A stretch of DNA of 33,433 nt, from positions 1 to 33,433 of the forward strand of contig JACPRN010000184.1 in NCBI GenBank assembly GCA_016189945.1. The letters are read 5' to 3'. Position numbers and translations under genes: made by a program. How positions within the stretch are numbered: position 1 is the stretch's first letter; each line of letters starts with the position of its first letter. The notes under the pieces were generated by a model. It saw only the letters and a program-made list of their open reading frames with translations, ran no database searches and was not told the DNA's origin. Below, piece after piece: positions 706 to 12,565 of this stretch. Source of the stretch: Betaproteobacteria bacterium. Its GTDB lineage: Bacteria; Pseudomonadota; Gammaproteobacteria; Burkholderiales; SG8-39.

Positions 706-900
706 ATGTCACCCCTACTCATCGCAGGCGTCATGGAGCACGTTGCGTGCTACCTGCAAAGCGGTTCGGCGCAAGCCGCGCACCGCGCAGTCCTTTTACT
801 TCAGCGCTTGGCACTCGACTCGGAAACCGATCAAGCCCTCCGAGCGCATGCCGAGGATCTTGCCGAGGCGATTCTTAACCAAGACAAGGCACTCACATGA
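706..900 (+). CDS. Small protein of unknown function between receptor and chelatase-like gene
   Basis: A 64-codon ORF starts at ATG 706, six nt after a GAGGAGA Shine-Dalgarno (693-699). Its TGA (898-900) overlaps the ATG (897) of the next gene as ATGA, so translational coupling is likely. The product is mostly alpha-helical by composition, with an alternating hydrophobic/charged pattern (HRAVLLLQRLALDSETDQAL). It begins with a moderately hydrophobic segment (SPLLIAGVMEHVACYLQ) and has one cysteine. I see no clear signal peptide or known domain. Its place between an outer-membrane receptor and an exported chelatase-like protein suggests a role in the same uptake process. I do not recognise the family. 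The ribosome binding site and the ATGA junction are the main evidence that it is real. Confidence 0.72.
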   Translation: MSPLLIAGVMEHVACYLQSGSAQAAHRAVLLLQRLALDSETDQALRAHAEDLAEAILNQDKALT

Positions 901-2579
901 AAATGCAACTACTACGCCGTCGCGTCTGGATCGCAACGATCGGACTCGCCGTAGGCCTTTGGGCTCCGGCGGCAAACAGCACGCGCGCAGCCGAAACCGG
1001 TTTTGTCGCCCTTGCGGCGGACCGCGGATTCCAGGGCAACGAGGAGATCCGCGATGCGTTCGACGCGTTTGCGGCCGGGCGCAACGCGGAGCTGGTATTC
1101 GTGACCGACGCGCGCACGCAGGACACGCTCGATCGCGCGCTGGGGCGGCTGTCGCAGCGCGGGGCGACACGCGCGCTGGTCCTGCCGGTATTCATGTCCG
1201 CGTCCGATCCGCAATGGCAGCGTGCAAAAGAGTACCTCGCAAAGCAGTCTCTGCCGGTCGAATTGGCTCGACCCTTCGGCGAGACCTACCTCGCGGTCGA
1301 GGCGCTCGCCGAGCGGCTGCGCGCGGTCCGCGACCCGGGGAAAACGAAGCTCGTCGTCGCCGGCTTGGGCGCCGATGGTCCAGAGGCACGAAAACTCCTC
1401 GCGCGCGATTGGCAGCGCATCGCCGATCTCGCCGCGCAATCTCTCGGGTTTTGGCGTATCCAGGCGGTGGTGTGGGACGACGGAAAAGCGCCGGATCGGG
1501 AAGCGAAGCGCGCCGAAGCGCGCCGCGCGCTTGCCCAAGCCGTGCCAGGCGGAGACCGCACCGTCGTGGTGCCGTTTCATTTCGGCCGGCGCCTGGACGG
1601 CATGATGGCCTACGAAGCGGATCTGAAGCGCGCGCTCCCCCCTGGCGCCGAGATATTGGCGCCGGGCCCAGGTCCCGAATCGTGGCTTGCGACCTGGATG
1701 GCGCGGGAGGCGAATCTGCATTCGACGCTCGATCCCCGCGAGGTCGGCGTGATCCTGCTCGCCCATGGCTCCGATTACCACTGGAACGAGACCATGCGCG
1801 AGGCTGTGCGCCCGCTCGAGGCTCGCCATCCGGTCGAGTACGTGTTTTCGATGGCCGATCAGGCGCTCCTCGAGCGCGCAGTGCGGCGCCTGGAAAAGCG
1901 AGGGGCGCGTGCGGCGATCATCGTGCGCGTGTTCGGGCTCGTCTCAACGTTCCGCGACGAGGTCGAACGCATGATCGGGGCCGATATCGAAGGAAGCAGC
2001 GCCGCGGGCGCGCGGTCCCACGCCGCGGACGGTCATGCGCCCGGTCACGACCATGCGAGTTCCGCTGCTCTGCCGAGGATTCGCTCGGCCCTCGCCATGG
2101 CGACAGCCGGCGGACTCGAGGCCGATTCCCTGTTCGCCGCCGCGCTCCTTGATCGTGCGCGAACTCTTTCGCGCGATCCGGCGCGCGAAACGGTGATTCT
2201 CACCGGGCACGGCGCTGGGACCGAGGCGAAAAACGAACAATGGCTGGGGATCCTGGATCGGCTCGGCGAGCAAATCAAGGCCGGCGGAGTGCCTTTTCGC
2301 GACGTGCGCTACGCCACCTGGCGCGAGGACTGGCCCGACAAGCGCGGTCCTTGGATTGCCAAGGTGAGGAGCATGGTGATGGAGGCCGGACGTGACGGGG
2401 GCCGCGCGCTCGTGATTCCGGCACGCACCAACGGCCGCGGCCCGGAGCAGGCCTTTCTCGAAGGGTTGACTTTCGACCTCGGCGAAGGATTTGCGCCGCA
2501 TCCGCTGTTCCTGCGCTGGGTCGAAGCGCAGGTCGAAGCCGGCACGTCGGTGCTGCGAGAAACACGCTCAGCTCGGTGA
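897..2579 (+). CDS. Exported CbiX-like (sirohydrochlorin chelatase family) protein with four modules
   Basis: 560 residues. The N-terminus (RRR, then WIATIGLAVGLWAPAA, then a likely cleavage site near TRAAETG) looks like a Sec signal peptide or anchor, so the protein probably acts in the periplasm, unlike cytoplasmic CbiX. The body reads as four chelatase half-modules at roughly residues 34-150, 150-280, 284-370 and 430-545. Module 3 has the classic opening ILLAHGSDYHWNETM (His290) and ends AAIIVRVFG. Module 4 opens ILTGHGAG (His438). Modules 1 and 2 open with ALAADRG and VAGLGADG and lack the histidine. A histidine-rich linker (H375, H380, H384, H386) sits between modules 3 and 4, as in metal-binding loops of CbiX-type proteins. 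Known CbiX enzymes insert Co2+ into sirohydrochlorin. Whether this one inserts, removes or stores metal is unknown. The TonB receptor upstream favours metal or corrinoid/porphyrin handling. Confidence 0.8.
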   Translation: MKMQLLRRRVWIATIGLAVGLWAPAANSTRAAETGFVALAADRGFQGNEEIRDAFDAFAAGRNAELVFVTDARTQDTLDRALGRLSQRGATRALVLPVFMSASDPQWQRAKEYLAKQSLPVELARPFGETYLAVEALAERLRAVRDPGKTKLVVAGLGADGPEARKLLARDWQRIADLAAQSLGFWRIQAVVWDDGKAPDREAKRAEARRALAQAVPGGDRTVVVPFHFGRRLDGMMAYEADLKRALPPGAEILAPGPGPESWLATWMAREANLHSTLDPREVGVILLAHGSDYHWNETMREAVRPLEARHPVEYVFSMADQALLERAVRRLEKRGARAAIIVRVFGLVSTFRDEVERMIGADIEGSSAAGARSHAADGHAPGHDHASSAALPRIRSALAMATAGGLEADSLFAAALLDRARTLSRDPARETVILTGHGAGTEAKNEQWLGILDRLGEQIKAGGVPFRDVRYATWREDWPDKRGPWIAKVRSMVMEAGRDGGRALVIPARTNGRGPEQAFLEGLTFDLGEGFAPHPLFLRWVEAQVEAGTSVLRETRSAR

Positions 2580-2772: not shown

Positions 2773-3003
2773 GTGGGCAAAATCATTTTTTTCCTCATCC
2801 TGGCGGCCGTCGCCTACCTGCTGTTGCGGGCGATGACCCGTCCCAAGCGGACCGATTCCCCGAGCGCAAAGACCGCCGAAGGCAGCGTCGAGACCATGCA
2901 GGCCTGCGCGCGCTGCGGCGTGAACCTGCCGAAGAGCGAAGCGCTCGAAGCCGACGGCCGATTCTTCTGCAGCGAAGAGCATCGCCGCCTGGGCGCGAAA
3001 TAG
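2773..3003 (+). CDS. PP0621-family small membrane-anchored zinc-ribbon-like protein
   Basis: 76 residues from a GTG start. An N-terminal membrane segment (IIFFLILAAVAYLLLRAM) is followed by a polar linker and a compact C-terminal motif, CARCGVNLPKSEAL then FFCSEEHRRL. The pattern CxxC...C...H suggests a small TRASH/zinc-finger-like fold facing the cytoplasm. Proteins of this type (often labelled PP0621 family) lie next to pilS and ampD in betaproteobacteria and pseudomonads, and the same order is seen here: the stop at 3003 is 9 nt before the PilS start. No biochemical function is known to me. A role in membrane-linked signalling with PilS is only inferred from position. An upstream TATAAT at 2717-2722 may drive this gene and the genes after it. 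Confidence 0.82.
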   Translation: MGKIIFFLILAAVAYLLLRAMTRPKRTDSPSAKTAEGSVETMQACARCGVNLPKSEALEADGRFFCSEEHRRLGAK

Positions 3004-5957: not shown

Positions 5958-6508
5958 ATGTCACCGCCGAGGGCGTGGTTGTCGAGGCGCAGCAGGTTTC
6001 CTCGCCCAACTGCGATGAGCGCCCGCCGGGCGAAGCGGTTACCCTCGTTGTCCTGCACAGCATCAGCCTGCCGCCGGGTGAATTCGGGGGGAGTGAGATC
6101 GAGGGCCTCTTCACCAACGCCCTGGATTGCGGCGCCCACCCCTATTTTGCCCGCCTGAAGGGGCTCCAGGTGTCGGCGCATTTCCTGGTTCGGCGTGACG
6201 GCGAGCTGATTCAGTTCGTTCCCTGTTCCCGTCGCGCGTGGCATGCGGGGCGCTCTGCCTGGCGGGGCAGGGAGCAATGCAACGACTTCTCCATCGGAAT
6301 CGAGCTGGAAGGAGCCGACGGCGTGCCGTACACCGATGCGCAGTACGAAGCACTCGCCGCCCTGGTTCCTGCGCTCGGCGCTCGCTATCCGATAGGCGAA
6401 ATCGTCGGGCACAGCGACGTCGCGCCCGCGCGCAAGACCGATCCGGGCGCCGCGTTCGACTGGCCGAGGTTGCGCAAGATGATCGCGCCGAAATCGCCCG
6501 CGCACTGA
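5954..6508 (+). CDS. ampD: AmpD: 1,6-anhydro-N-acetylmuramyl-L-alanine amidase
   Basis: 184 residues from GTG 5954, which forms a GTGA overlap with the pilR stop; the length matches AmpD (183 residues in E. coli). The open frame extends further upstream, but that part only mirrors pilR. The amidase_2 fold is evident: the zinc ligand His35 in VVLHSISLPPGEFGG, the glutamate in GIELEG, and the second zinc histidine with the lysine/aspartate pair in IVGHSDVAPARKTDPG. AmpD is a cytoplasmic zinc amidase that removes the stem peptide from anhydromuropeptides during peptidoglycan recycling, and its loss can induce ampC beta-lactamase in some bacteria. No signal peptide is present, as expected. Placement after pilR is conserved in related genomes and need not mean a shared function. 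Confidence 0.94.
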   Translation: MNVTAEGVVVEAQQVSSPNCDERPPGEAVTLVVLHSISLPPGEFGGSEIEGLFTNALDCGAHPYFARLKGLQVSAHFLVRRDGELIQFVPCSRRAWHAGRSAWRGREQCNDFSIGIELEGADGVPYTDAQYEALAALVPALGARYPIGEIVGHSDVAPARKTDPGAAFDWPRLRKMIAPKSPAH

Positions 6509-6549
6509 AGCGATTCCACGCGCGCAGGCGTTGCAGTGAGTGGCGGCGA

Positions 6550-6582
6550 ATGCGCTCAAGTGCGCGCACGCGGCGCTTTTTT
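6550..6582 (+). terminator. Possible weak terminator after ampD
   Basis: About 40 nt after the ampD stop, a GC-rich stretch with a 10-bp palindrome (GTGCGCGCAC, 6560-6569) and a possible 4-bp stem (6564-6567 with 6573-6576) is followed directly by six T (6577-6582). The stem is short, so the call is tentative. Confidence 0.35.
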
Positions 6583-6626
6583 CTTACGCGACGGATGCTT
6601 GCGCGCGCTGAAACAGAAAAAAATGC

Positions 6627-6688
6627 TTGCATCCAAAAAAATTGCGCACTAGAATTAGTTGCAAATGGATGGCGGACTACTATATATT
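6627..6688 (+). promoter_or_regulatory. Two tandem sigma-70-like promoters
   Basis: P1 has TTGCAT (6627-6632), a 17-nt spacer and TAGAAT (6650-6655). P2 has TTGCAA (6659-6664), an 18-nt spacer and TATATT (6683-6688). Both lie in an AT-rich island, which is unusual in this GC-rich window. The first clear gene downstream in the same direction is the histone-like one at 7242, so transcripts from here would have about 550 nt before it. Confidence 0.5.
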
Positions 6689-7082
6689 GTGGTCAATGTG
6701 CAACTCAGAACATGCCGCTGCGGGCGAAGCATCAACGGCTGCATCGGCACGATTCCCGAGGAGACCGATTGAGGTGCCAATGGTCGCTGATGCGATGACC
6801 TCTCAGGCTGTGCGCATGGCGAGTTTCCGCGGTTTTCTTCTCCGGCATTCAACTTTCCTTTTCCGGCCGAGGCGGCCTGCGCCGCAACGTTGCGGGGGCG
6901 GGAAACGGATATCGCCGAGTTTCACCGGTGGACGTGAGGATGTTTCCCGCTGCAGGCATCGGACCGCCGCACCCGAGAGGGAACTTGCGGCCGCGTCGGC
7001 GCAGCGGGACTGTCAGTTGGCCACGACCCGTAAAGCAAGGGGGCGGCGCGCTCGATGCGGGTGCGCCCGATGGTAACGTGGG

Positions 7083-7181
7083 ATGCCGGCGTCGGGGAAT
7101 ATGGGCATCCCGGATCAGGGCCTGCGCTTCGAGCAGGCTTGGCAAGAGATTCAGCGCGCCGGAGTTCATCCCGGCGCCTGA
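7083..7181 (+). CDS. Candidate 32-codon small ORF or gene remnant
   Basis: The ATG at 7083 opens a 32-codon frame to TGA 7179-7181. Its codon use is like that of real genes here: most third positions are G or C. The product (opening MPASGNMGIPDQGL, then RFEQAWQEIQRAGVHPGA) is soluble and helix-prone, unlike the arginine-rich products of the other two frames. There is no good Shine-Dalgarno, and an in-frame stop lies just upstream (7074-7076). It may be a true small protein, the tail of a decayed gene, or chance. It sits 60 nt before the histone-like gene. I do not recognise it. Confidence 0.25.
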   Translation: MPASGNMGIPDQGLRFEQAWQEIQRAGVHPGA

Positions 7182-7241
7182 TTAGCCCGTGCTTGTAGCG
7201 GCGGGTTCTTGTTGTTCCTTTAACTCTTGATGGAGGTTGTT

Positions 7242-7559
7242 ATGGCTACGAAGAAAAAGGCGAAGAAAGCGGCGAAGAAACCGGCTAAAAAGAAGAAGAA
7301 GAGAGCAGCCAAAGCTGCGAAGAAGAAGTCGGTGAAGAAAACCGCCAAGAAGAAGACGGCGAAGAAGAAGCCGGCGAAGAAAAAGAAAGCGGCCAAGAAA
7401 AAGGCCGCCAAGAAGAAAAAGGCGAAACCCGCTGCAATGGGAGCTGCGCCTGCGGCACCGGCGGTTCCGGCCGCCGAGCCCGCTGTGGCAACACCCGGTT
7501 CAAGGACTGCTTTGAACCCGGTAGCAGCTTGGCCGTTTCCTACAGGCTCCAGGCCGTAG
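7242..7559 (+). CDS. Histone H1-like, lysine/alanine-rich DNA-binding protein (AlgP/HupR-like)
   Basis: 105 residues. The start is ATG 7242, five nt after GGAGG (7232-7236); an in-frame ATG at 7227 lies before this ribosome binding site and is less likely. Residues 1-65 are an almost pure run of KKxAKK-type repeats similar to the C-terminal tail of eukaryotic H1. A short alanine/proline linker follows, then a distinct end, LNPVAAWPFPTGSRP, which I recall as common among betaproteobacterial relatives. Such proteins bind DNA non-specifically and affect nucleoid structure; the relative AlgP was linked to alginate control in Pseudomonas. The lysine codons (AAG/AAA) make this DNA locally AT-richer and repeat-like, so strain-to-strain length changes are expected. 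The gene stands alone and is followed by two hairpins. Confidence 0.85.
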   Translation: MATKKKAKKAAKKPAKKKKKRAAKAAKKKSVKKTAKKKTAKKKPAKKKKAAKKKAAKKKKAKPAAMGAAPAAPAVPAAEPAVATPGSRTALNPVAAWPFPTGSRP

Positions 7560-7574
7560 GCGGGTTGCGAATGA

Positions 7575-7608
7575 GCTGCGGGCGGTCGGTCTTCGGACCG
7601 CCCGCAGC
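7575..7608 (+). terminator. Hairpin after the histone-like gene, with possible UUCG loop
   Basis: Perfect 13-bp arms (7575-7587 and 7596-7608) start 16 nt after the stop codon. An alternative fold gives a C(UUCG)G tetraloop (7591-7596) with an 8-bp outer stem. No T-run follows, so it may be a 3'-end stabiliser rather than an intrinsic terminator; a strong terminator lies 20 nt further on. Confidence 0.5.
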
Positions 7609-7628
7609 CATTCGGTTAAAGGATGACA

Positions 7629-7696
7629 TCCCGGCTTTGCTGCTGACGTACGGGCGTATTTTACCAGGTACGCCAGCGGCAAAGCCGGGATTTTTT
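7629..7696 (+). terminator. Strong intrinsic terminator with long stem
   Basis: The arms 7629-7645 and 7674-7690 pair over 17 bp with one G-U. After one mismatch the stem continues for 5 bp (7647-7651 with 7668-7672). Six T follow at once (7691-7696). This ends plus-strand transcription from the histone-like gene or from any RNA made between 7560 and 7690. Confidence 0.8.
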
Positions 7697-7765
7697 GTAT
7701 CATGGGTTCGCTCGAGCGGACCGGCCCGCTCTGACCAAGCCCTTGAAATCGCCGGAAAATTTCGC

Positions 7766-7794
7766 TTGACCAGCGGCAAGCGATTCATTAAGAT
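7766..7794 (+). promoter_or_regulatory. Sigma-70-like promoter of the transglycosylase gene
   Basis: TTGACC (7766-7771), a 17-nt spacer and TAAGAT (7789-7794) closely match the consensus. Transcription should start near 7801, about 220 nt before the ATG at 8022. The signal lies just downstream of the strong terminator, as expected for a new transcription unit. Confidence 0.7.
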
Positions 7795-7800
7795 GCGGCT

Positions 7801-8021
7801 TTCGCAGCGCGCCCATTCAGTACTCTAATCGGCTGGGGCAGCCGCTTCCAGAAGCGCGGCAAGCGGCTCGAACAGCGTCGGCAGTCGAAGGTGTCCGGTC
7901 CGCCGGAACAGGCGGAGCACCGGTAAAAGTTAGCCTAAATACAAGGTCTTATGGCCTGACGAATGTCAGGGCATGCGAGATCAGGAGGTCCGCGACAGAG
8001 GGCCTGAAACGGAGGTGTGCG
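7801..8021 (+). promoter_or_regulatory. Long structured 5' leader of the lytic transglycosylase gene
   Basis: Between the promoter and the start codon are about 220 nt with several small hairpins: CGGCT/AGCCG and CGCTT/AAGCG around 7830-7858, TCCGG/CCGGA near 7895-7912, AGGTC/GGCCT near 7942-7956, and CCTGAC-GAAT-GTCAGG near 7956-7972. The leader ends in a strong GGAGGT ribosome binding site (8011-8016). I cannot match it to a riboswitch class I know. It may be a regulatory leader or an embedded sRNA. No coding frame in it looks convincing. Confidence 0.45.
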
Positions 8022-8711
8022 ATGAACACAACTGCGTCATGGCGAGGTCTGCAGCAACGCGCGGGAATATTCCTCGCGCGCCTGTACAACGGGCTGGCAT
8101 TTCTCGGCACCGGCGCCCTGGTATTCCTGCTCGCGCAGGGAAATCTGCTCACAACGGAACCGGCGGCGCGCGGCTCTGCCGCTTTCGGCAGCATCACCTA
8201 CGAGAGCGTTGCCGGGCTGGGCGCCGGCGACGAAGCGCATGATCCGAAGTACCATGCCATCGCGAGCTACCTGTCGAAGAAATACAAGGTGGCCACCGAT
8301 GCGACGGTGCAACTGGTGGGCGCCGCGTACGACGCCGGGAACCGCGTCGGTGTCGACCCTCTGCTGATATTGGCGGTCATGGCGATCGAATCGAAGTTCA
8401 ACCCGATCGCCGAAAGCGTGGCCGGCGCGAAAGGCCTGATGCAGGTCATCCCCAGGCATCACCAGGACAAGTTCTCCGAACACGGCGGCGAGGAGGCCGT
8501 ACTCGACCCGACGACAAACATTCAGGTCGGGGCGCGCATTCTCAAGGATTACATCCGCCGCACCGGAAACCTCGAGGCGGGGCTGCAGCTCTACGGCGGC
8601 GCGCTTTCCGACGCTTCCGGACAGTACGCGCAGAAGGTGATCGCGGAGAAGGAGCGCCTGCGCCAAGCCCTCCAGCGCTTGGAGAAGCAGCCGGCGAAAA
8701 GCCCCGCGTAG
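8022..8711 (+). CDS. Lytic transglycosylase, SLT domain, membrane-anchored
   Basis: 229 residues; the start at ATG 8022 is set by GGAGGT five nt upstream. A hydrophobic segment at about residues 22-42 (LYNGLAFLGTGALVFLLAQG) acts as signal or anchor. The SLT (goose-lysozyme-like) domain spans about 95-210, with the catalytic glutamate in AVMAIESKFNPIAES, then GAKGLMQVIP, the NIQVGARILKDYI segment and the YGGALSD segment. The family cleaves peptidoglycan glycan strands to give 1,6-anhydromuropeptides, the substrates that AmpD (5954-6508) acts on after import. The C-terminus is a charged helix. The gene is probably monocistronic: it has its own promoter and leader, and a convergent gene follows 24 nt later. 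Confidence 0.9.
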   Translation: MNTTASWRGLQQRAGIFLARLYNGLAFLGTGALVFLLAQGNLLTTEPAARGSAAFGSITYESVAGLGAGDEAHDPKYHAIASYLSKKYKVATDATVQLVGAAYDAGNRVGVDPLLILAVMAIESKFNPIAESVAGAKGLMQVIPRHHQDKFSEHGGEEAVLDPTTNIQVGARILKDYIRRTGNLEAGLQLYGGALSDASGQYAQKVIAEKERLRQALQRLEKQPAKSPA

Positions 8712-8735
8712 CGCGGTGCCGAGGAAGGCCCGCGC

Positions 8736-9902
8736 TCACAGCATGCCGGCGATGCGCCGCACGCCTTCCTCCAGCTCCTCGAGCGAGCGCGTGTACGCAA
8801 AACGAACGTGAGCGCGGGCACGGTAGCTTCCGAAATCCACGCCCGGGGTGATCGCGACCCCGGCCTCCTCCAGCAGGCGCAGCGCGAATTCCTCGCTGTC
8901 GGCGGCGAATCTCTCGCATCCCGCATAGATGTAGAACGCGCCGCTCGGCGTAACCGGAATTGCGAACCCCAGATCGCGCAGCGCGGGCAGCAGGAAGTCG
9001 CGCCGCCGCTTGAATTCGAGCCGGCGCTGCTCGAGCAGCGCCAGCGTATCCGGGAGAAACGCCGCGAGTGCCGCGTACTGGGCCGGCGCCGAGGGGCAGA
9101 TGAAGGCGTTCTGGGCCAACCGCTCGACCTCGCGCATGTAGCGCGCCGGCGCGACCATCCACCCGAGACGCCAGCCGGTCATGTTGAAATACTTGGAAAA
9201 GCTGTTGACGACGAAGACATCGTCGGCCAGCGCGAGCGCCGTGGCGAGCGATCCCTCGTAGCTCAATCCGAGATAGATCTCGTCGACCAGCGTGAATCCG
9301 CCGTGCGAGCGCACGCAATCGATGATTGCGCCCAGTTCGGCCGCGGAGACGCTCGTGCCGGTCGGATTCGAGGGCGAGGCGATCATGACCCCGCGTGTGC
9401 GCGCATCCCAGTTGCGCTGCACGTCCGCCGCACAGAGCTGGTAGGACTGGCGCTCGTCGACCGGCAGCGTGCGCGCGCGGCCTTCGAACAGGCGCACGAA
9501 GTGGCGCGAACAGGGATAGCAAGGGTCGGGCATGATCCACTCGTCGCCCGGGTTGACGAGGGTTGCGAGAGCGAGCAGGAAGGCGCCCGAGGCGCCGGCG
9601 GTAACCGCTATTCGCTCCGGGGACACCTCCACGCCGTGGCGTTCGCGGTAATAGCGCGCGATTTCCCGGCGCAGTTCCGGAATTCCCAGTGCCGGCGTGT
9701 AGCCAAGGGGGCGGTGGCGCACCGCATCCACGGCCGCTTCGATGACCTGAGGCGGCGCGGAAAAATCCGGCTGCCCGATTTCCATGTGGATGATGCGGCG
9801 CCCCTGCGCCTCGAGTTCGAGCGCCCGGTCCTGCACCTCCATGACGTGAAACGGTTCGATCCCGGCCATCCGCGCGGCGGCATCGTTCGCTTGGCGATTC
9901 AT
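8736..9902 (-). CDS. PLP-dependent class I/II aminotransferase
   Basis: 388 residues, starting at ATG 9902. Fold type I features are clear: MEIGQPDFSAPP near the N-terminus, GYTPALGIPELRREIA, TAGASGAF (phosphate-binding region), PSNPTG, LVDEIYLGLSYEG, and the Schiff-base lysine in SFSKYFNMTGWRLGW, followed by the conserved arginine in ARAHVRFAYTRS. The protein is cytosolic. The sequence resembles the aspartate/aromatic aminotransferase branch often annotated simply as 'pyridoxal phosphate-dependent aminotransferase'; the amino-acid substrate cannot be decided here. It is convergent with the transglycosylase and divergent from phaM. A TATAGT -10-like hexamer reads leftward about 65 nt before the start, without a clear -35. 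Confidence 0.9.
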   Translation of the reverse strand: MNRQANDAAARMAGIEPFHVMEVQDRALELEAQGRRIIHMEIGQPDFSAPPQVIEAAVDAVRHRPLGYTPALGIPELRREIARYYRERHGVEVSPERIAVTAGASGAFLLALATLVNPGDEWIMPDPCYPCSRHFVRLFEGRARTLPVDERQSYQLCAADVQRNWDARTRGVMIASPSNPTGTSVSAAELGAIIDCVRSHGGFTLVDEIYLGLSYEGSLATALALADDVFVVNSFSKYFNMTGWRLGWMVAPARYMREVERLAQNAFICPSAPAQYAALAAFLPDTLALLEQRRLEFKRRRDFLLPALRDLGFAIPVTPSGAFYIYAGCERFAADSEEFALRLLEEAGVAITPGVDFGSYRARAHVRFAYTRSLEELEEGVRRIAGML

Positions 9903-10080
9903 GATCCGATTCTCTCCGCGCCCGCCCGCACGCCTGCGCTCCGGCGCAGCCCGGGCCGGGCTGACGAGCGAACTATACGCGCGGCGCGGGACGCGGGGAT
10001 GCCTGTCGCGTGTCGGGGCGCTGGAGTTTTTGCTTGCCGGGAACTAAACTGAAGGCGGTTGTTCTCACCTCGCCTGCGCC

Positions 10081-10443
10081 ATGTCACAGACCACCGGTCC
10101 CGATCCGTTCGAATTCCTGAAGGCGCTTTGGAGTCCCATGGGCCTGCCGATGAGCGGCATGGTCGCTCCGATACTGGACGTGTCCGAGATCGACAAGCGC
10201 ATTGCCGACCTCAAGTCGGTGGAGAACTGGCTCAGCATGAACTTGAGCGTCCTCAAAATGACCATTCAAGGCCTGGAGATGCAGCGCGCGACCCTCGCCG
10301 CGATGCAGGCATCGGCAGCCGCCGTTGCTGCGCAGGTTTCCCGGCCAAGTCCAGGGGGGGATCCGCTCGTGGACGCCTGGCGGGCGGTCCTGCAGGCGCA
10401 AGCGAAGCAGAAACCCGAGGGCCCGGACTCCTCCAAGAAATGA
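10081..10443 (+). CDS. phaM: PhaM-family polyhydroxyalkanoate granule protein
   Basis: 120 residues from ATG 10081. The N-terminal part (DPFEFLKALWSPMGLP) and the central core (LDVSEIDKRIADLKSVENWL, then MNLSVLKMTIQGLEMQRATL) match the PhaM family of betaproteobacteria. A low-complexity alanine/lysine C-terminus ends in KPEGPDSSKK. In Ralstonia, PhaM activates PHA synthase PhaC, sits on granules and binds DNA through its basic tail, so granules are shared between daughter cells. The basic tail here is shorter than in Ralstonia, so DNA binding is less certain. The stop overlaps the next start codon (ATGA), implying co-translation. No phaC or phaP is in the window. An upstream TAAACT (10045-10050) may be the -10. 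Confidence 0.88.
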   Translation: MSQTTGPDPFEFLKALWSPMGLPMSGMVAPILDVSEIDKRIADLKSVENWLSMNLSVLKMTIQGLEMQRATLAAMQASAAAVAAQVSRPSPGGDPLVDAWRAVLQAQAKQKPEGPDSSKK

Positions 10444-11573
10444 CTCCGGCTTTCCGCTTCGGCCATGCCAGCGCACGAAACTGGCGCATGGCGGCGAAGG
10501 CATCCCTTGAGGCGCTCGAGCCGTTGCCTGCCGGGGCCAATCTCGGCTTTGTCTACTTCAGCGAGCATTATTCCGGCGAGGCCGAGGCCCTCCTCGGCTG
10601 GCTCGTGGACCGGACCGGCGTGCGCGACTGGGTCGGTTCCGTGGGGATCGGCGTGATAGCGACCGGCACCGAGTATCTGGAGGAACCGGCCCTGGCGCTG
10701 ATGGTCGGCGCGTTTCCGCCGGATTCGTTCCAGGTGTTCTCCGGCGCCTCGATGCCTCCGCGCGCCGGCGCACGGACCCGAAGCGGCGCGCACGCGGCGG
10801 ATTTCGCCGTCGTGCATGGCGATCCGGGCAGCGACGACATGCCGGGTCTGATCGAGGACATGTCGCACAAGGTCGAGAGCGGTTTTCTGGTCGGCGGGCT
10901 GTCCTCCTCGCGCATGCGCACCCTGCAGATTGCCAACGGCGTGCTGCACGGCGGCCTCTCGGGCGTCGTGTTTTCCTCCGACATCCGGGTCGCGACGCGC
11001 TTGACGCAGGGCTGCGCGCCGCTGCGTGCGGGCGCGGGCGAGGCGCCGCGCGTGCACCGCGTAACCAAGTGCGAGCGGAACATCATCGTCCTGCTCGATG
11101 GCAGGCCCGCGCTCGATGTGTTTCGCGAAGACGTGGGCGATGACCTGGCGCGCGATCTCAATCGCGCCGCGCATTTGATCCTCGCGGGGCTGCCGATTCC
11201 CGCTTCCGACACCGGCGACTACCTGGTAAGGAACCTGGTCGGCATCGATACGCGCAACCGGCTGATCGCGATCGGGGCGCCGGTGGAGCCGGGCATGCCG
11301 ATCATGTTCTGCCGGCGCGGCGGCGCAGCGGCGCGCGAAGACCTGCAGCGTATGCTCAAGAGCATCGCGCTCGCGCTCGGCGGCGAGCCTGCGGCGGGAC
11401 TGTATTATTCCTGCCTCGGACGCGGGGCCAACATGTTCGGCGCCAAATCGGCGGAAATGCAGATGATCAGGGATGAGCTGGGGAACTTCCCCATGGTGGG
11501 GTTCTTCGCCAACGGCGAGATCTCCCACGACCGTCTTTACGGCTATACCGGCGTGCTGACCCTGTTTGTCTGA
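10440..11573 (+). CDS. Stand-alone FIST-domain sensory protein
   Basis: 377 residues from ATG 10440, which overlaps the phaM stop; the open frame continues upstream but that part only mirrors phaM. The N-terminal FIST_N region covers about residues 25-215 (ANLGFVYFSEHYSGEAEALL, VGSVGIGVIATGTEYLE, GLSSSRMRTLQIANGVLHGG, GVVFSSDIRV). The C-terminal FIST_C region covers about 225-375 (GDYLVRNLVGIDTRNRLI, AAGLYYSCLGRGANMFG, and FPMVGFFANGEISHD near the end). FIST domains are proposed to bind small ligands such as amino acids. They occur fused to histidine kinases or cyclases or, as here, alone; no output domain or signal peptide is present. Coupling to phaM suggests some link with carbon-storage physiology, but that is inference. 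Confidence 0.87.
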   Translation: MTPAFRFGHASARNWRMAAKASLEALEPLPAGANLGFVYFSEHYSGEAEALLGWLVDRTGVRDWVGSVGIGVIATGTEYLEEPALALMVGAFPPDSFQVFSGASMPPRAGARTRSGAHAADFAVVHGDPGSDDMPGLIEDMSHKVESGFLVGGLSSSRMRTLQIANGVLHGGLSGVVFSSDIRVATRLTQGCAPLRAGAGEAPRVHRVTKCERNIIVLLDGRPALDVFREDVGDDLARDLNRAAHLILAGLPIPASDTGDYLVRNLVGIDTRNRLIAIGAPVEPGMPIMFCRRGGAAAREDLQRMLKSIALALGGEPAAGLYYSCLGRGANMFGAKSAEMQMIRDELGNFPMVGFFANGEISHDRLYGYTGVLTLFV

Positions 11574-11593
11574 GGGAACTCCTGGAGGCAATG

Positions 11594-12565
11594 ATGCCCA
11601 AGGCAATTCGCATTCACACCAACGGCGGAGCGGAAGTGCTCAAGTGGGAGGAGGTGAGCGTCGGCGATCCGGGTCCGGGCGAGGCGCGGGTGCGCCAGCA
11701 CGCCGTCGGGCTCAACTACATCGACGTCTATCACCGCAGCGGCCAGTACCCGGCGCCGCTGCCGTCGGGAATCGGGATGGAGGGAGCGGGCGTGGTCGAG
11801 GCGCTCGGGGCGGACGTGACCGGGCTCAAGCCCGGTGACCGCGTCGCCTACGCGAGCATGCCGCTCGGGGCCTATTGCGAGGTGCGCAACATGCCCGCCG
11901 AGAGGCTTCTGCGGCTGCCCGATCGCATATCCTTCGAGCAGGCGGCGGCGATGATGCTGCAGGGAATAACCGCCCAATACCTGATCAAGCGCACCTACAA
12001 GGTCCAGCGCGGCGACGCCGTCCTGTTTCACGCCGCGGCCGGCGGCCTGGGACTGATCACCTGCCAGTGGCTGAACGCGATCGGCGCCACCGTCATCGGC
12101 ACCGCGGGCTCCGATGAAAAGGCCGCGCTCGCAAAAGCGCATGGCTGCCGCCACGCAGTCAACTACAAGAGCGAGAACTTCGTCGAGCGGGTGAAGGAGA
12201 TCACCGGCGGCGCCGGCGTTGCGGTGGTCTACGATTCAGTCGGAAAGGACACCTTCCAGGGTTCGCTCGACTGCCTGCGCCCCTTTGGCATGCTGGTCGC
12301 GGTCGGCAATTCCTCCGGAGCGGTTCCGCCGATCGATCTCGGCAAGGCGTGCCGGGGCTCTCTTTTTCTGACCCGGCCCTCGATCGTCGCCTACACGGCG
12401 AAGCGCGAGGACCTCCTCGCCTCCGCGAACGATCTGTTCGACATCGTTCTCTCCGGACAGGTGAGAATCGAGGTCAACCAGCGCTATGCGCTTCGCGATG
12501 CGGCGCAGGCGCACCGGGACCTCGAAGCGCGCAGGACAACCGGCTCGACGATTCTTCTGCCTTAG
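11594..12565 (+). CDS. qor: NADPH:quinone oxidoreductase (zinc-independent MDR family)
   Basis: 323 residues. Two ATG codons occur in tandem (11591 and 11594); GGAGG at 11584-11588 is better spaced for 11594. The medium-chain dehydrogenase/reductase fold has an N-terminal GroES-like domain (VGLNYIDVYHRSGQYP, GIGMEGAGVVEALG, GDRVAYASMPLGAYCE) and a Rossmann domain with the NADPH loop HAAAGGLGLITCQWLNAIG. The catalytic zinc cysteines of alcohol dehydrogenases are absent, as in QOR. The family reduces quinones with NADPH in the cytoplasm. The gene follows the FIST gene by 20 nt in the same direction, so it may share its transcript. The call is firm at subfamily level; the physiological quinone is unknown. 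Confidence 0.93.
   Translation: MPKAIRIHTNGGAEVLKWEEVSVGDPGPGEARVRQHAVGLNYIDVYHRSGQYPAPLPSGIGMEGAGVVEALGADVTGLKPGDRVAYASMPLGAYCEVRNMPAERLLRLPDRISFEQAAAMMLQGITAQYLIKRTYKVQRGDAVLFHAAAGGLGLITCQWLNAIGATVIGTAGSDEKAALAKAHGCRHAVNYKSENFVERVKEITGGAGVAVVYDSVGKDTFQGSLDCLRPFGMLVAVGNSSGAVPPIDLGKACRGSLFLTRPSIVAYTAKREDLLASANDLFDIVLSGQVRIEVNQRYALRDAAQAHRDLEARRTTGSTILLP

Follow-up and report, generated by a model that had tools for sequence, protein, structure and literature searches.

How iron is obtained from haem in bacteria without cytoplasmic haem-degrading enzymes is a question whose answer is only emerging, with HmuS in Bacteroidota. HmuS from Bacteroides is described as an enzyme which strips iron from haem to give porphyrin and Fe(II) and which needs membranes and NADH for this; it holds haem between its class-II-like head and neck by Met-79 and His-254 (PMC12583661). 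Here we analysed a stretch of 33,433 bp from a Betaproteobacteria bacterium (assembly GCA_016189945.1, contig JACPRN010000184.1; the whole stretch is called the window below), in which a gene downstream of a TonB-dependent receptor fragment encodes a chelatase-fold protein of 560 amino acids (aa) and four modules. Our results support a four-module family that is real, conserved, probably exported and largely found in iron/haem uptake loci, with carriers among many environmental bacteria, and the metal handled is most likely iron from haem. The original prediction had proposed an operon that may import a metal complex or porphyrin and load, strip or buffer metal in the periplasm; a receptor-linked envelope role with metal or tetrapyrrole was supported, with stripping favoured and the substrate sharpened to iron from haem. 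It is likely that the protein belongs to haem-iron uptake. Judging from its fold, invariant residues and neighbourhood, we lean, on balance, towards the view that it removes iron from haem in the periplasm. A wider scheme, in which four-module class II chelatases run in reverse in the proteobacterial periplasm and iron passes from a TonB haem receptor through the chelatase to a (cytochrome c-)FTR1 permease, with haem never crossing the inner membrane and independently of haem ATP-binding cassette (ABC) importers and cytoplasmic haem oxygenases, seems to us evenly poised between right and wrong.

HmuS belongs to a haem operon with HmuY and a TonB receptor, and one member of our family (L041; L numbers denote the loci compared) lies near HmuY. 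HmuS has a Met and a His between two class-II-like lobes. In our model of the window protein the invariant M319 comes after the second strand of module 3 and the invariant H438 after the first strand of module 4; judged by this order of elements and the text of the paper, the two may resemble Met-79 and His-254. However, HmuS is a class I, CobN-like protein of more than 1400 aa and six domains, whereas the window protein is class II, and no CobN domain was found in its 560 aa, where the family scan gave only CbiX and a sub-threshold RraB match. HmuS was also absent among the best 50 matches of each structure comparison. For Porphyromonas gingivalis, we take IhtB and FetB to be one protein. IhtB is a CbiK homologue considered capable of withdrawing haem iron on behalf of the receptor IhtA (PMC10913741); insertion of Mn into the porphyrin, and perhaps removal of the iron, is ascribed to FetB (PMC13402209). 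It is an exported class II fold (a lipoprotein) with a TonB receptor, and its structure 9b86 fits modules 3+4 at Z 15.8; in the window the receptor stands beside the gene and export was judged by inspection of the sequence. However, IhtB/FetB is one two-module unit of CbiK type, and its partners IhtC-E are of ABC type (PMC10913741), whereas the window family has two tandem units of CbiX type and FTR1 as recurring permease.

CbiK-P of Desulfovibrio vulgaris is likewise a periplasmic class II chelatase whose structure (2xvz) fits modules 3+4 at Z 16.4, but it has two modules and was deposited as a cobalt chelatase. The sirohydrochlorin chelatases CbiX, SirB and CfbA are cytoplasmic biosynthetic enzymes, and CbiX consists of one or two modules. 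The window protein shares with them the Pfam CbiX match, a CfbA-type His-rich stretch, the equivalent of CfbA H9 in module 3 and SirB as best fold match; it differs in its four modules, its export-signal-like N-terminus and a Phe in place of the second catalytic His. EfeB is a DyP-family peroxidase with a fold unrelated to chelatases. What resembles our loci is that, for the use of haem iron, this extracytoplasmic haem enzyme is combined with an Ftr1-like permease, EfeU (PMC3577903). Since the protein fails one defining feature each of CbiX, IhtB/FetB and HmuS, we assigned it to none of them; among envelope de-chelatases its counterparts would be the class I HmuS of Bacteroidota and IhtB/FetB of Porphyromonas. 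We recognised no published description of the four-module family in the literature searched, which mostly left subscription papers outside, and the word 'chelatase' is absent from the main text, as available, of the paper on Fur in N. europaea (PMC3050691). If our reading is true, Proteobacteria, among them ammonia oxidisers with their large haem demand, have an envelope de-chelatase of another structural class than HmuS, and extracytoplasmic iron extraction evolved more than once. The family would also offer a small soluble protein for studying how a chelatase is driven backwards. It would also caution against taking the CbiX match of such a protein for a cobalt or sirohydrochlorin chelatase.

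The features of the window concerned are the following.

2-694, + strand: TonB-dependent receptor, C-terminal 230 aa, truncated at the contig start, best matches among haem/haemoglobin receptors (PF00593, E 1.6e-29)
706-900, + strand: open reading frame (ORF) of 64 aa, overlapping the start of the chelatase gene, no homologue in the fetched loci, no family above a cut-off
897-2579, + strand: class II chelatase-fold protein, four modules, probably exported, 560 aa (CbiX PF01903, AlphaFold2 model, PDB matches)
897-980, + strand: signal-peptide-like N-terminus, about residues 1-28 (from the sequence)
993-1334, + strand: module 1, about residues 33-146, with the DRGFxGN motif and without leading His (alignments, model)
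1335-1730, + strand: module 2, about residues 147-278, with invariant M237 and without leading His (alignments, model)
1731-2177, + strand: module 3, about residues 279-427, with H290 (1764-1766) and M319 (1851-1853) (alignments, model)
2001-2060, + strand: His-rich low-confidence loop within module 3, residues 369-388, aligning with the His-rich stretch of CfbA
2178-2576, + strand: module 4, about residues 428-560, with H438 (2208-2210), TWREDWPDK (474-482) and GFAPHP (alignments, model)

The original prediction had let the feature start at 706, which is the start of the 64-aa ORF, while the chelatase gene itself occupies 897-2579. Its four chelatase modules were borne out. AlphaFold2, supplied with an alignment of 21 sequences (window and homologues), modelled the protein as a beta-alpha chelatase unit repeated four times, with a predicted local distance difference test score (pLDDT) of 86.1 and a predicted template modelling score (pTM) of 0.85, and both halves found matches in the PDB. 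In these structure comparisons (best 50 matches each, Z scores from predicted models), the matches listed for modules 1+2 (residues 28-279) included ferrochelatases at Z about 15, FetB 9b86 at 14.8 and CbiK-P at 14.2, those listed for modules 3+4 (residues 276-557) included SirB 5zt8_B at 15.3, and the top one, SirB 5zt7_A at 16.4, covered residues 33-560. When modules 3+4 were folded alone, the predicted model matched SirB at Z 19.0 over 231 residues (root-mean-square deviation 3.2), followed by CbiX 4ccs at 16.9 and by CbiK-P and FetB at the values given above. A single-sequence search of the PDB had no match at E <= 1, while the profile search did find chelatases. At the family level, the whole protein matched CbiX PF01903 with 40.9 bits against a Pfam cut-off of 22; taken singly, modules 1 and 3 matched and modules 2 and 4 did not. 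The C-terminal halves of 12 of 21 sequences matched CbiX PF01903 at E <= 0.01, and weak matches were obtained to CbiK PF06180 (5/21) and to ferrochelatase PF00762 (7/21), the latter counting in favour of iron removal from haem; the family scan of the window gave no CbiK PF06180 match. The profiles of modules 1+2 and modules 3+4 aligned nearly end to end in hhalign (98.2 %, E 4.7e-14), and with this alignment the modelled protein looks like the product of a tandem duplication, in which a unit of two modules is present twice.

The N-terminus, MKMQLLRRRVWIATIGLAVGLW, is by inspection basic and then hydrophobic, as had been predicted, and export of the window copy is likely. In 22 of the 25 aligned sequences having such a segment, it contains the 13-mer of highest hydrophobicity in the entire protein; the exceptions are the window (1.95 vs 2.03 elsewhere), L013 (a tie) and L015. 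Lipobox-like cysteines occur in L040 and in the half-size L048.

Conservation was read from a 27-row alignment. Besides the window it contains a pair of copies from a single Nitrospirota genome and a nearly identical pair from Manganitrophus, and it omits the broken or partial L018, L026, L033, L034, L036 and L042, the half-size L031, L032 and L048 and the divergent L043-L045. H290, H438, M237 and M319 were invariant in 27/27 sequences (window included). The leading His is kept only in modules 3 and 4, as predicted: its place is taken in module 1 by A41 (A, P, S or R in the family), before the invariant D42, and in module 2 by L157 (Tyr in 19/27). The stretch T474-W-R-E-D-W-P480 and K482 were invariant in a 21-row alignment with one half-size relative, and even in a more divergent set of 16 sequences H290, G291, M319, H438, G439 and D478 remained so. 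Modules 1-2 had been described as degenerate. However, D42, R43, G44, F45, G47, N48, S101 and M237 were invariant in a 20-row alignment; since the two modules thus have their own set of invariant positions (DRGFxGN, S101, M237), they are conserved and not decayed. In the profile alignment H290 pairs with H9 and M319 with E42 of CfbA (numbering counted from the alignment), where H9 and H75 are the catalytic histidines. The predicted His-rich stretch is real, with H386 commonly kept (17/27) and H375, H380 and H384 present in 10, 6 and 7 of the 27 sequences. It had been called a linker between modules 3 and 4; since the residues of pLDDT <50 (369-388, ahead of strand 400-405) lie within module 3 and align by profile with the His-rich stretch of archaeal CfbA, it is a loop inside module 3.

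The neighbourhood was analysed by clustering of neighbouring ORFs and Pfam scans of chosen neighbours. L001-L009, L046, L047 and L049, which duplicate the window or longer fetched stretches, were left out, and counts refer either to 21 genomes (16 behind related loci and 5 others) or to a full tally of 32, which merges L029/L034, L031/L032, L035-L037 and L043-L045 and scores a marker anywhere in the locus stretch (3.5 to 33 kb each), the HmuY of L041 being entered by hand. At least one haem/iron marker was found in 21/32 genomes: a TonB receptor in 17, a Fur box in 12, HemP in 5, an FTR1 model in 5 (L012 included), PepSY_TM in 3 and HmuY in 1. Co-occurrence with TonB receptors, proposed earlier as a check, was seen: a receptor lies within 8 kb of the gene in 13/21 genomes, where the receptor numbers of the individual genomes would lead one to expect 1.9. 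The P value of about 1e-10 is indicative, since some of the genomes are related to one another and the neighbours themselves served to build the receptor model. A haem-type receptor over a curated cut-off, as in a HemP/TonB haem-uptake operon, was present in homologous loci: 7 of 14 full-length nearby receptors tested passed the haem/haemoglobin NCBIfam cut-offs (L010, L011, L016, L019, L020 at 5582, L022 and L038), and the same seven are all the full-length receptors that adjoin the chelatase gene without an intervening called gene (7/7). Those of L034, L035, L039 and L041 passed neither the haem nor the siderophore cut-offs. HemP (PF10636) occurs in L011, L017, L022, L038 and L041, PepSY_TM in L020, L035-L037 and L039, and ExbB/ExbD or similar genes in L011, L012, L020 and L038. 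FTR1 was near the gene in 4/21 genomes against 0.12 expected (L011, L020, L031/L032, L038). L012 has a cut protein of a cytochrome c-FTR1 model; because its visible part is only the cytochrome c domain, it was left out of this enrichment test, though the tally of 32 marks it. The order in L011 is FTR1, HemP, haem receptor and chelatase, and ExbB and ExbD follow after a further 3-4 kb or so; in L031/L032 a half-size relative divergently adjoins cytochrome c-FTR1, which we count in favour of the proposed iron route. Homologues regularly without receptors, which the original prediction had held to speak against it, were encountered in part: 15/32 genomes have no TonB receptor within the stretch examined, some of them on short contigs; among the 15, a strong Fur box is present in three, and in one FTR1 adjoins the gene.

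In the window, the sequence opens at the contig end, and therefore the first part of the receptor and anything before it are unseen. The fragment is nearest to the NCBIfam models TIGR01786 (5e-43) and TIGR01785 (7e-41), below whole-protein cut-offs as a fragment. Its identity to the C-terminus of the L038 receptor, one of those above the cut-offs for haem receptors, is 55 %. It contains SPNPNLKPE, which we take to be an NPNL-like motif; the FRAP-NPNL motif was not used as proof of receptor type because strict matches to both parts were found in only 4/23 sequences. Two other observations concern neighbours of the gene. A protein of about 440 aa repeatedly adjoins it (L022 6470-7912, L023 6451-7785, L021 306-1622, L017 6015-7364, L038 7792-9090); L022 and L038, the two members that were scanned, contain DUF2325. 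L010 4884-7922 carries a DUF3501 domain and a TonB receptor in one open frame, which is a fusion or an over-long ORF.

Fur boxes, scored as at least 15/19 matches to the 19-base Fur consensus, were predicted in 15/37 loci, at 28 positions against 1.0 expected (554 kb, first-order resampling), many of which overlap or sit in near-identical loci. Candidate boxes lie upstream of hemP in L017, L022 and L038, of receptor-including runs in L016, L020 and L035-L037, of the DUF2325-chelatase pair in L021 and L023 (in L022 near the DUF2325 ORF start as called), and of the chelatase gene itself in L015, L028, L029, L034 and L035-L037. L028 is a Thermomonas locus without a receptor, yet with a candidate box, and some receptor-bearing loci have no site of this strength. 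The window entered this count with its first 14 kb, and the scan for the tally of 32 covered all of it; it gave none, the region upstream of the receptor being off the contig. A cobalt, nickel or B12 riboswitch, for which the original prediction suggested a search, was not detected at the Rfam gathering score in the window or in 8 homologous loci (141 kb). The link to these metals was rejected on this ground; the neighbours are iron/haem genes and the only hit was an unrelated anti-hemB RNA in L010 (RF02837, 9720-9812), just downstream of the chelatase gene.

Another contig of the window's genome (L050, G000:C280) carries an iron-import cluster at about 6420-11637 on the - strand, in the order hemP, Fe2+ transport protein (PF10634), OprB porin, cupredoxin, FTR1 and Fer4 protein. 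Just before this hemP is a weak Fur-like site of 13/19. Taking the two contigs together, the genome has both halves of the proposed route, not side by side. HemS was not found in 20/21 genomes nor haem oxygenase (PF01126) in 21/21; with a class-wide HemS rate of 6/143, and 14 control genomes as background for PF01126 and PF01032, the missing haem-degrading enzymes were dropped as support. FecCD ABC permeases were not found in 8/21 genomes, several of them drafts, which argues against haem import by the FecCD route there.

From these results we infer a possible sequence of events. The TonB-dependent receptor would carry haem into the periplasm, where the cleft of the second unit (modules 3+4) may bind it, and iron would be taken out by the class II chelatase reaction in reverse, with H290, H438, M319 and the REDWPDK loop as candidate residues. 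Reduction might come from PepSY_TM or cytochrome partners, and the released iron might be buffered by the His-rich loop. An FTR1-type permease would then import the iron, and the porphyrin would remain outside the cytoplasm.

Several observations weigh against this route. The position of CfbA H75 is occupied by F352 (Phe in 25/27), and the protein thus lacks the second catalytic His. A search of the rest of the assembly, which is 80 % complete, did not find the N-terminal half of the window's receptor or a HemP or Fur box preceding it. The receptors of L014 and L017 and the first of two in L020, all farther from the gene, passed the siderophore cut-off, and those of L039 and L035 are nearest to siderophore models. 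Two Manganitrophus copies (L035, L037) have no N-terminal signal segment. In 11/32 genomes no marker was found (L018, L024-L027, L030, L033, L040, L042, G368 and the genome of L048); among these, L040 and L042 lie on contigs of less than 5 kb, L018, L026 and L033 have broken copies of the gene, and G368 and L048 are divergent or half-size. In L024-L028, as far as the contigs reach, ManC-like or IspD genes stand before the chelatase and FabA/ketosynthase genes after it; the marker-less L024-L027 (Thermomonas/Xanthomonas-type) lie near ManC or IspD and FabA-FabB genes. In Nitrosomonas (L018, L030, L033) an alcohol dehydrogenase follows the chelatase, with an esterase in L030, and two of the three copies are broken.

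The missing second His would suit a periplasmic haem-binding or carrier protein without catalysis, whose bilobal fold holds haem by Met/His and hands it on to an inner-membrane importer or the cytochrome c machinery. The receptor/HemP/Fur context fits this equally, and periplasmic binding proteins appear among the fold matches, ranked below chelatases. According to the available text, HmuS itself holds a non-substrate haem by Met-79/His-254 (PMC12583661). However, both module-leading His are strictly kept, no haem ABC permease was seen among the chosen neighbours scanned, FecCD was not found in the 8 genomes mentioned above and the FTR1 iron permease recurs instead. We regard such a carrier as rather unlikely.

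PepSY_TM proteins are partners of siderophore iron release, and their presence in three genomes, together with the siderophore-type receptors just listed, would fit a chelatase acting on another periplasmic iron complex (a siderophore or other metallophore). However, all seven full-length receptors directly beside the gene are haem-type, HemP and HmuY are nearby and the fold is that of tetrapyrrole chelatases, which makes this quite improbable. Still less probable is a periplasmic chelatase inserting Co, Ni or Mn into porphyrin, as D. vulgaris CbiK-P or P. gingivalis FetB, in spite of the fold match to both and of the Mn-protoporphyrin IX that FetB makes in the accessible text of a review (PMC13402209), since no B12, Co or Ni riboswitch reached the gathering score in the loci scanned and the Fur boxes and FTR1 point to iron.

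Two small ORFs of the window deserve mention. The original prediction had placed a receptor and then a 64-residue protein upstream of the chelatase gene. Both are there, the receptor as a fragment; the 64-aa ORF had no homologue in the fetched loci (tblastn, E <= 10) except the window's own copies, was rejected as a conserved partner on this ground, and is probably not a conserved part of the locus. A 76-aa protein with sub-threshold family matches only, at 2773-3003 (+), has a hydrophobic N-terminus and paired cysteines; its gene comes after that of the chelatase and before one for a PilS-like sensor kinase.

The chelatase gene is rare, occurring in 7/369 genomes of the class and 2/398 of the phylum (by different cut-offs, the window's genome being in both). 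A search of genome contigs yielded 25 loci, and three Manganitrophus plasmids were added. Homologues are mostly in Proteobacteria; carriers include Methylibium, Nitrosospira, Nitrosovibrio, Nitrosomonas (with a strain of N. europaea), Stagnimonas, Thermomonas, Nitrospirota and others. The split or partial copies in L018, L026, L033, L034 and L036 suggest recurrent gene loss, or assembly errors. Relatives of half the size, which comprise just modules 3+4, are found in L031/L032 and L048 and, more distantly, in L043-L045; in L031/L032 (5826-8822) the block of half-size relative and divergent cytochrome c-FTR1 fusion is present twice, inverted, on one contig. On the plasmids of Candidatus Manganitrophus (L035-L037), the copies lie near a receptor, PepSY_TM, a ferritin-like protein and PRTRC genes.

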